Positions 7,728 to 15,841 of a DNA stretch of 64,000 nucleotides are shown one piece after another. The translations under genes and the position numbers were made by a program. The first letter of the stretch is position 1; each line of letters starts with the position of its first letter. Below the pieces are notes generated by a model. It worked only from the letters and a program-made list of their open reading frames with translations. It was not told where the DNA came from and did not search any database. The DNA is from Vampirovibrionales bacterium (GTDB lineage: Bacteria; Cyanobacteriota; Vampirovibrionia; Vampirovibrionales; Vampirovibrionaceae), in assembly GCA_029866025.1 (NCBI GenBank), contig JARXAD010000013.1:350705-414704 (forward strand). Direction: 5' to 3'.

Positions 7728-8831
7728 CTACTGCACGATGGATTCTCCCACAATAGGAGTGGATTCAACAACACCCACAGGCAAAAGGTGAGGTGGGGTG
7801 TGTGGCGTAAACTCTCCTTGGTGGCCCGCGAACAAGGTCATCTTGTGTAACACATTGGAATCGACGGCCTGTCGGGCCACGCGAATGGCGTTTTCCACAG
7901 CATAGGCATCACTGCTGCCATGGCCAATCACACAAATCCCATTGATACCCAACAATAAGGCGCCCCCATGCTCACTTGGGTCCACCTTGGCTTTGGAACG
8001 ACGCAAGGCCCCTTTGGCCAATAAAGCACCGGCCTGACTTTTTAAATTACTAGTGAATTCTTTCTTGAGGGTATGTAGGAGCATTTTGCCCAGCCCCTCG
8101 GCACTTTTTAGGGCCACGTTGCCCACAAAGCCATCACACACCGCCACATCGCAGGTGCCTTTAAAGAGGTCGTTGCCTTCCACATTGCCAATAAAATTTA
8201 GGTGGGGCTCATGTTTTAGCAGCTCAAAGGCGGCATTCACCATGGAATTGCCTTTGCCCAGCTCCTCGCCAATGTTCAGGATGCCCACGCGAGGATGCGA
8301 AACGCCGTAGACGTTTTGCATAAACACGCTGCCCATCTGGCTAAATTGCAGCAACATTTCTGGGATGCAGTCGGCGTTGGCGCCGGCATCCAGCAGAAGT
8401 GTGGGGGCACTGGAGGATGGCAAGACGACACCAATAGCGGGGCGGTCAATACCGGGGATTCGGCCAATGTACAGCAAGGCAGCCGCCATGGCAGCACCCG
8501 TGCTGCCAGCAGCCGTCATAGCATCGGCTTTTCCGTCTTTGACTAGGCGAGCCGCTACCACAATGGAGGCATTTTTTTTGCGTCGGATGGCTGTGGCAGG
8601 CGATTCGCCCATGCCAATCACATCGGGCGCATCAACAATCTCATACACAGCGCCACGGGTATTGGCCGAGGCCAGCTCGTGTTCGATGGTTTCAGTAGGG
8701 CCAACCAGTAGTACTTTCACGCCATAGCAGCGCGACCCATCCAATGCTCCTCGAATAATTTCTTTGGGGGCAAAGTCGCCACCCATGGCATCCACTGCAA
8801 TGGTAATGGGACGAGAGGGTGTAGACGGCAT
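7728..8831 (-). CDS. plsX: phosphate acyltransferase
   Basis: IAVDAMGGDFAPKEII, DAGANADC, VGNVALKSAEG. Confidence 0.95.
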   Translation of the reverse strand: MPSTPSRPITIAVDAMGGDFAPKEIIRGALDGSRCYGVKVLLVGPTETIEHELASANTRGAVYEIVDAPDVIGMGESPATAIRRKKNASIVVAARLVKDGKADAMTAAGSTGAAMAAALLYIGRIPGIDRPAIGVVLPSSSAPTLLLDAGANADCIPEMLLQFSQMGSVFMQNVYGVSHPRVGILNIGEELGKGNSMVNAAFELLKHEPHLNFIGNVEGNDLFKGTCDVAVCDGFVGNVALKSAEGLGKMLLHTLKKEFTSNLKSQAGALLAKGALRRSKAKVDPSEHGGALLLGINGICVIGHGSSDAYAVENAIRVARQAVDSNVLHKMTLFAGHQGEFTPHTPPHLLPVGVVESTPIVGESIVQ

Positions 8832-8875: not shown

Positions 8876-9262
8876 TTAAGCCTCGGGTTCCTTTTCCACG
8901 GATTTCGCGTCGGCAGCAACGTCTTCTGCTACCACATCCACAGTTACAGCTTCGTCGTCATGGGTGTGATCGTGATCACAATGTTCGTCGTGGACGTGGC
9001 CTTCAAGGTTGCTGTGGTCATGATCGTGGCCACAGTTTTCGTCATGCACATGCCCGGTTGCCGAAGCGGCACCAAAGTCTAGGCCTTGAAGGGCTTTGGG
9101 AATGACACGGTTTTTATAAAAGCCACACACGCCACACATGGTGTGTGGGTGACGAGGAGCGCCACAGTTGGTGCAGCTTGCCACGGTGGGCAAAATGGCT
9201 TTCCAGTTGGAACGACGGTGCCCTTGGTCTGAATGGCCAACTCGCTGCTTAGGTACTGGCAT
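8876..9262 (-). CDS. rpmF: 50S ribosomal protein bL32 with long His/Asp-rich C-terminal extension
   Basis: MPVPKQRVGHSDQGHRRSNWK, Zn ribbon CTNCG...CGVCGFYKNR; tail GHVHDENCGHDHDHSNLEGHVHDEHCDHDHTHDDE. Confidence 0.93.
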   Translation of the reverse strand: MPVPKQRVGHSDQGHRRSNWKAILPTVASCTNCGAPRHPHTMCGVCGFYKNRVIPKALQGLDFGAASATGHVHDENCGHDHDHSNLEGHVHDEHCDHDHTHDDEAVTVDVVAEDVAADAKSVEKEPEA

Positions 9263-9399
9263 GATTGAAATCCTTAAATAGAGTGTTGATTAAAAACTGG
9301 GAATGCAACTGGGGTGATACGTGGGCCGAGTTGACACACAAGAATGACTTATTAAGAGTAATAGGGCACATCATTCAACGAAAAAAGCATCCCCCTGTC

Positions 9400-9512: not shown

Positions 9513-9776
9513 TTAAGGCTGCTTTGCCGCCCCTCGCTGGACCCATAGCCTAAGAAAATGACCCTCTACTACTTCGGTATGGATCACCGCATGGCCTTCT
9601 TTCGCCAAACTGTTGGGAATATTGAGGGCCGAGGGGCCGTCGTTACGAATCAAAACCGTCATCACCTCGCCATCGGCTAATTTATCAAGCGCCAAGCAGG
9701 TTTGCACAAAATTGAGGGGGCACTTGGTGGTGCGCAAATCCAAAGTAGTAATTGGCGTGGGTAGGGAAGGGTTCAT
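9513..9776 (-). CDS. TusA/SirA-family sulfurtransferase
   Basis: LDLRTTKCPLNFVQTCLALDKLADGEVMTVLI, CPxxxxxT-type motif. Confidence 0.85.
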   Translation of the reverse strand: MNPSLPTPITTLDLRTTKCPLNFVQTCLALDKLADGEVMTVLIRNDGPSALNIPNSLAKEGHAVIHTEVVEGHFLRLWVQRGAAKQP

Positions 9777-9785
9777 CCCCTTAAT

Positions 9786-10076
9786 TTACACCGAATGCTG
9801 ACAAAAGCAGCTCTGGCTAAAAAGCTTTGGACATTCTGAGGCGTCCACTTTTTGCCACGGATCGAGAAAACAGTCGCGGGCTTTCACATAATCCCAGCAA
9901 AAGGCCGCCATGGCCTCGGGGGTGCGGCCGTATTCGGTAGATAAGCATGCCAAGCAAAAGCCTTGCTCCGTCAGCCCTAACGACAAATTCATTAAGCTAA
10001 CGCGCTCGCAAAAGCCCTCGCCGCAAGCATCGCAGGCGTAGGGTAACAATAGTAACTCTGTGGTGTGAGTGGACAT
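9786..10076 (-). CDS. Cys-rich hypothetical protein adjacent to TusA-like gene
   Basis: CDACGEGFC, CLAC, CWDYVKARDC, CFCQ motifs; compact spacing with the TusA-like gene. Confidence 0.6.
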   Translation of the reverse strand: MSTHTTELLLLPYACDACGEGFCERVSLMNLSLGLTEQGFCLACLSTEYGRTPEAMAAFCWDYVKARDCFLDPWQKVDASECPKLFSQSCFCQHSV

Positions 10077-14425: not shown

Positions 14426-15841
14426 TTATTGGAGTAAGGCGACGAGTTCTTGAATGGTTTTGGCTAAGCTGCCAAACTTGAAGTTCTCAAAGCCTGAAAA
14501 CACGTTGTTATTGGTGTTGTCTTTGAACTGACCGGTGTTGTTGTCGTAGGAAAAGCGGGACTTGATAGCAGCGTCATCAGCAAAAGTGCCTGCCACGTTT
14601 GCGGCATCGGCGCCAGCGCCACCCGCAAAGCTGTAGTTTTTCGCTGTATCGGCAACGTTCAAAATATCAGCACCGCCCAACAAGTTGATGTTTTTATTCA
14701 CCGCGTTGGATTCATTTGCGGCGTTGTAGGTGTTGATGTCATCGTTAAACACAGGAGCCACATAGTTCATTAGGTCGGCAGCTAAAATAGATTGAGTTCC
14801 ACCGAAGTTGTAGCGTTCAAAGTCAGACAGGTTGACAATTTTTCCGCTGTCATTATGAGTAAACTTATAGCTACCGTCGGTGTTTTTCTCAATTTTGTAT
14901 TTGTTTAACTGTTCAGCCAAATTCACTTTGTCAGTGCCTTCGCCACCAGTGGCTGTTCCTGTCGTGTCTTTGTCCACGTTAAGAACATCGTCTTCTAATC
15001 CGAGGTTAATATCGTTTAGCTTTTTCTTTTTGCCGTCAATGTTGTTAATGTCACCGGCATTAAAGTCAGACTGGTTGATTTCACCTGTGGCGGGGGGGGT
15101 AACGGTTGTACCGCCTAACCAATCGGCCAAGGTTTTTTTGGTACCATTTTTAAATTCAAGTATGGCATCTGCATTGGAACCCAGGTTTACATCAATATCG
15201 CCAAACTTTAACTGGTAAGAACCATTGGCGTTCTTCTTCAGTGCGTCGGCAATGGTGGTGGGGGCGTCGTTGTCTCCGACGTAGATGTTTTCAAAACCCT
15301 TGATTTTGCCTGTAGAACCTTTACCTATAAAGGCAAAATCACTACCGTCAGCACCATTGGCATCTACGTAACCGTTGCGAACATTGAGGCGGTCATCACC
15401 GTCACCCAAGGTGCCGGTAAATTTGTTGCTTTTACCCACAACGGTTGCGGTGTCGTTGCCGGCACCAGTATCAATGTCTTTGGCGGTAATGTTACTACCA
15501 CGGAGTCTTATGGTGTCGCTGCCATCGCTTCCGTCAAAATTGTTAATGCTGGTATACTTGCCGGCAAAAATAGACTGGCTGCTGTCTGCTAACGTGTGAT
15601 CAAGCTTATTAAAAACGTTGTCATTACCGCCGTCGTAAGTACGCCCTTTTCCTTCTTTGGTTGTTTGTTTAATACTGCCACCGTCGGCATAGGTAATAAA
15701 ATCTTGGTTTTCGCTACCACGCTGGGTAATGTTCACTTTAGCGTCATCAGCGCCTTTTTTTAAAAGCACTGTATTATTGGCGTCTTTGGTTTGGGAGCCG
15801 GTAATACTTTTGTTTGCGGCAGATGTACTGTAAATAGCCAT
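14426..15841 (-). CDS. RTX/beta-roll-like acidic protein
   Basis: Gly/Asn/Asp-rich repeats (GSDTIRLRGSN, GAGNDTATVVG, LGDGDDRLNV). Confidence 0.7.
   Translation of the reverse strand: MAIYSTSAANKSITGSQTKDANNTVLLKKGADDAKVNITQRGSENQDFITYADGGSIKQTTKEGKGRTYDGGNDNVFNKLDHTLADSSQSIFAGKYTSINNFDGSDGSDTIRLRGSNITAKDIDTGAGNDTATVVGKSNKFTGTLGDGDDRLNVRNGYVDANGADGSDFAFIGKGSTGKIKGFENIYVGDNDAPTTIADALKKNANGSYQLKFGDIDVNLGSNADAILEFKNGTKKTLADWLGGTTVTPPATGEINQSDFNAGDINNIDGKKKKLNDINLGLEDDVLNVDKDTTGTATGGEGTDKVNLAEQLNKYKIEKNTDGSYKFTHNDSGKIVNLSDFERYNFGGTQSILAADLMNYVAPVFNDDINTYNAANESNAVNKNINLLGGADILNVADTAKNYSFAGGAGADAANVAGTFADDAAIKSRFSYDNNTGQFKDNTNNNVFSGFENFKFGSLAKTIQELVALLQ

Follow-up and report, generated by a model that had tools for sequence, protein, structure and literature searches.

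Ribosomal protein bL32 of a Vampirovibrionales bacterium ends in a tail with two tandem histidine-rich units, and comparison across the order suggests that this tail is a genuine, translated extension retained by selection, a disordered arm on the large ribosomal subunit that would bind metal. The best overall explanation that we can offer, to which we give slightly less than an even chance, is a selectively kept metal-binding arm that serves as a local buffer at the site where nascent proteins leave the ribosome.

A single intact rpmF gene encodes a bL32 with a histidine-rich tail

The window (the whole 64,000-nucleotide stretch of DNA that was analyzed) contains rpmF and its neighbor plsX with the following features:

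7728 to 8831, minus strand: plsX, the next gene downstream of rpmF (PF02504)
8876 to 9262, minus strand: rpmF, encoding bL32 (128 aa), an open reading frame with an ATG start
8879 to 8950, minus strand: acidic end of the bL32 tail, residues 105 to 128 (from the translation)
8960 to 9001, minus strand: His unit 2, GHVHDEHCDHDHTH, residues 88 to 101, containing HxHxHxH (x = 0 to 4 residues)
9014 to 9055, minus strand: His unit 1, GHVHDENCGHDHDH, residues 70 to 83 (from the translation)
9101 to 9262, minus strand: bL32 core, residues 1 to 54, matching Pfam PF01783 and TIGR01031 and aligning with bL32 chains in the PDB
9125 to 9175, minus strand: zinc ribbon CTNCGAPRHPHTMCGVC, residues 30 to 46, with four cysteines
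9271 to 9275, minus strand: likely Shine-Dalgarno sequence AAGGA, identified by eye 8 bases upstream of the rpmF ATG

Residues 3 to 54 match Pfam PF01783 (3.1e-15) and TIGR01031 (1.8e-16), and the scores exceed the curated cutoffs for bL32 family membership (60.1 versus 22.6 bits for TIGR01031 and 56.5 versus 21.3 bits for PF01783). The four zinc ribbon residues C30, C33, C43, and C46 are invariant in an alignment of 14 members of the order. One rpmF is present per genome in the order genomes searched, this genome included, and because this single gene retains the invariant core residues, its product likely assembles into the 50S subunit. In all order members for which the locus was read (tblastn on loci), plsX adjoins rpmF; fatty acid genes also lie downstream with plsX. 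Elsewhere in the window, a TusA-family gene (9513 to 9776) adjoins a gene for a 96-residue Cys-rich protein (CDACGEGFC...; 9786 to 10076, minus strand), and positions 14426 to 15841 (minus strand) encode a 471-residue protein with repeats rich in Asp, Gly, and Asn; neither the 96-residue nor the 471-residue protein has a Pfam match.

The tail, predicted to be disordered, comprises 74 residues. An AlphaFold model gives a good zinc ribbon (pLDDT, ∼92) and an unstructured, low-confidence tail (pLDDT, ∼50), and no PDB structures matching the tail were found. The histidine-rich string spans residues 70 to 104 (9055 to 8951) and consists of two 14-residue units joined by the linker SNLE. It holds 11 histidines in 35 residues (binomial P, ∼6e-11 at the local histidine frequency of 2.0%, calculated from nine confidently called genes in the window); elsewhere in these nine genes, four histidines is the most that any 35 consecutive residues contain. 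The preliminary description of a histidine-rich tandem repeat on an otherwise normal bL32 is thus borne out: the protein is single copy, its four-Cys ribbon is intact, and there are two units. The start of the string was correctly placed at residue 70; its end, given as 8954, falls one residue short of 8951, and the 24 mostly acidic residues that follow up to the stop codon had not been included.

A protein search found no tail-like proteins elsewhere in this genome. A DNA pattern search of the same genome found two other HDHDH-like stretches, in an Mrp-type protein and a CDF-type exporter (identities assigned by eye). An Mrp/ApbC-like P-loop protein (L139, G000:C2 near 49852) ends in HTHDHGHDHAGHKEHAGCC, a metal-binding-like tail.

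Distribution of the tail across the order, class, and phylum

The order genome set comprised 19 genomes in three families, and tail counts cover 18 genomes from 11 genera. When "tailed" was defined as four or more histidines in the bL32 tail, 11 of the 18 Vampirovibrionales genomes and 5 of the 11 genera carried a histidine-rich tail. Besides the genome described here (G000), these have the following tails:

G005: AGHDHHDHDHDHEGHDHD
G002: HTHDHGDDHDHDHDHG
Genus g5, six species: EK[FL]HAHHEH
G016: EEHVHDENRGHDHAHGHSHD
G018: EEHVHDENYGHDHAHD

No histidine-rich tail was found in G001, G003, G012, G014, or family f2. Comparison of rpmF across the lineage, as the preliminary description had proposed, revealed an intact reading frame and comparable tails in ten other assemblies, which rules out a frameshift or single-assembly artifact. 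The specific string HVHDEN.GHDH occurs in two families whose bL32 proteins are only about half identical.

In the rest of the class, none of ∼63 tails read had more than one histidine (0 or 1 each). When a sample of 158 genomes from the phylum was surveyed with a profile of the tailed bL32, no full bL32 match extended through the end of the histidine positions except that of this genome; matches in G405 and G407 reach profile position 74 only by crossing a stop codon, as judged by coordinates. The bL32 proteins of other phyla, sampled by one genome-contig scan alone, all lacked a histidine tail.

The preliminary figure of about 55 to 60 aa for a standard bL32 does not extend to relatives with tails, which are longer: the proteins measure 61 to 128 aa in the order and up to ∼136 aa in the class. 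Lengthening of bL32 is a class-wide habit, as seen in family f6, where most members read (e.g., L084, L089, and L094) have long Lys/Glu-rich tails of up to ∼80 residues without histidine. The bL32 tails of G001 and G003 are Ala/Asp or Glu rich, and the bL31 proteins of G011 and G003 (L164 and L167) have long Ala/Lys/Glu-rich tails. The untailed G013 has a separate histidine-rich open frame, HPHYHVHADGTPCTHDHGHDHG, a candidate gene (L134, G013:C137).

Evolutionary history and conservation of the histidines

A tree of PlsX places every tailed genome in one clade (support, 97/93) together with four untailed genomes, and family f2 lies outside it. The tail label needs 4 changes on this tree, and 4 of 500 label shuffles were as clustered. 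This pattern is most simply read as one gain and three losses, and independent gains may also account for it. The absence of the tail from three lineages of the clade marks it as dispensable and counts against a role as metal buffer, as does the replacement of the unit's cysteine by Arg or Tyr in two species.

At the cysteine position of the His unit, G016 has CGC (Arg) and G018 has TAC (Tyr). Since each codon is one step from TGC, the ancestor of these two species probably carried the full HVHDENCGHDHAH; the presence of Arg and Tyr at this position therefore indicates that the cysteine is less needed than the histidines. Within this genome, units 1 and 2 are identical at 11 of 14 amino acids; six of those 11 codons differ silently and three codons change meaning, a count given here as 6:3 and not as a ratio test, the unit-to-unit synonymous distance being saturated by a simple estimate. 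Across the six species of genus g5, the HAHHEH ending is invariant and most tail codons vary silently, with invariant residues making up 8 of 9 in the tail versus 40 of 55 in the core. These comparisons, which involve small numbers and are not a formal test, suggest that selection keeps the tail at the amino acid level.

The tail resembles the histidine stretches of metal chaperones

The short motif of the His unit also occurs in UreE, COG0523-type GTPases, SlyD, trigger factor, HtpG, and a SEC-C protein of unrelated bacteria (identities assigned by eye). Work on COG0523 proteins defined HxHxHxH, with 0 to 4 residues between histidines, as a minimal His stretch (PMC2770081). Five of the six tail types (G000, G002, G005, G016, and the HAHHEH genus) contain this pattern; the G018 tail does not. 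Taken together, recurrence in the clade, conservation of the histidines despite silent codon changes, and a motif shared with metal chaperones make it probable that the tail binds metal. Its composition and the chaperone motif suggest loose binding of more than one ion at once, with Zn(II) or Ni(II) as the metal. The same evidence upholds the preliminary reading of the tail as metal-binding-like, though not its extension to a zinc reservoir in the established sense. Membership of bL32 among UreE/SlyD-type metallochaperones was ruled out: no homologous chaperone domain is present, and the tail alone matches UreE at 14.8 bits, against a cutoff of 221 bits.

Zinc handling and alternative explanations

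Searches of this genome, which is 94% complete, gave no strong match to COG0523 and found neither ZnuA nor ZIP; the cell may therefore handle zinc in an unusual way. Across the order, ZnuA showed no association with the tail, being present in 2 of the 11 genomes that have it and 2 of the 7 that lack it, strong COG0523 matches were confined to family f3, where tailed and untailed members both have them, and ZIP scored above the cutoff in G013 only. FUR-family regulators are present, two of them in this genome. Each genome has one bL31 (in this genome at about window positions 61692 to 61883); the 13 bL31 sequences that were read are all of the Cys type, and none of those read has a histidine-rich tail. 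Peptide deformylase (PDF) is encoded in all 19 order genomes, once in this one; being present with or without the tail, it is not discriminating. None of ZnuA, ZIP, COG0523, FUR, bL31, or PDF separates tailed from untailed species.

A zinc reservoir of the classical kind, in which bL32 would be swapped for a Cys-free form during zinc starvation and its metal released, has precedents in bL31 and bL36 (PMC7873864), and the FUR-family regulators would fit it. However, with one rpmF and one bL31 per genome, the latter of the Cys type where read, the reservoir of the preliminary description does not hold as a paralogue swap: no Cys-free paralogue was found in a search that covered bL32 and bL31, and such a swap is therefore not supported and appears highly improbable. 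The tail could instead act as a loading aid that catches zinc and passes it to the four cysteines of the same bL32 while the 50S subunit is being assembled, in a cell with few zinc uptake systems, and has no later role. The invariance of those cysteines and the missing ZnuA, ZIP, and strong COG0523 match are in keeping with this idea, but untailed relatives retain the same four cysteines and bL31, also a zinc ribosomal protein, has no such tail in the sequences read; we consider it unlikely.

Drift would dispense with metal altogether, the class habit of adding charged, disordered tails having happened to yield His and Asp in this clade. The histidine-free Lys/Glu tails of family f6, the Ala/Asp or Glu-rich tails of G001 and G003, and the long bL31 tails of G003 and G011 all lend it some weight. 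Against it, two separate comparisons (between the units and within genus g5) show histidines retained while codons change silently, and the HVHDEN.GHDH string is found in two families with bL32 proteins only about half identical. Drift thus seems to us a rather unlikely account.

Proposed role at the tunnel exit

L32 figures among the proteins that line the tunnel and vestibule (PMC8556260). PDF carries Fe(II) (PMC9099147), and in E. coli it is reported to dock in a groove formed by L22 and L32 (PMC3130931, PMC5452302). Judging from structures of E. coli, in which bL32 lacks a tail of this kind, the protein described here would lie at the rim of the exit tunnel with uL22. At 74 residues, a disordered tail could be long enough to extend to the tunnel exit. 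There, the arm would take up metal when it is free, hold it as a local buffer, and release it to nascent zinc proteins (including the zinc ribbon of bL32 itself) or to metalloenzymes at the exit site. Given the likely metal binding and the position of bL32 near the exit and the PDF groove, our best guess is that the tail buffers metal locally where the tunnel opens, a reading offered tentatively as a possibility that falls short of probable. The narrower proposal that a built-in arm delivers metal cotranslationally to nascent proteins, or to PDF docked beside bL32, is distinctly doubtful.

The tail bears on how metalloproteins acquire the correct metal, be it cotranslationally or later. Because one clade has retained it while sister species lack it, it provides a natural comparison for metal buffering or delivery by ribosomes. 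Our comparisons suggest that ribosomes of the tailed Vampirovibrionales may have a metal store of their own near the nascent-protein exit, which would take the concept of ribosomal zinc storage past the known paralogue swaps. We found no earlier report, among open papers, of a histidine-rich bL32 tail or of histidine-rich Vampirovibrio proteins.

Comparison with known systems

The protein shares its core, its four-Cys zinc ribbon, and the rpmF-plsX gene order with canonical bL32 (RpmF; TIGR01031, PF01783), whereas solved bL32 chains in the PDB are 47 to 67 aa long and align only to residues 1 to 55. Family f6 bL32 proteins are extended at the same position and by a similar length, but their tails are composed of Lys, Glu, and Ala and have no histidine. 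G3E GTPases (COG0523, UreG, and HypB), UreE, and SlyD likewise have a short, disordered stretch of His and Asp, terminal or nearly so, that fits the HxHxHxH definition, and some histidine stretches of this type carry the same HVHDExCxHDH string as the bL32 tail; the host proteins, however, are not homologous, and here a ribosomal protein bears the tail. As in the bL31 and bL36 zinc reservoirs, a ribosomal zinc ribbon protein may act as a metal store, but unlike in those systems, no paralogue swap was found, and the extra sites are histidine rich and lie outside the ribbon.
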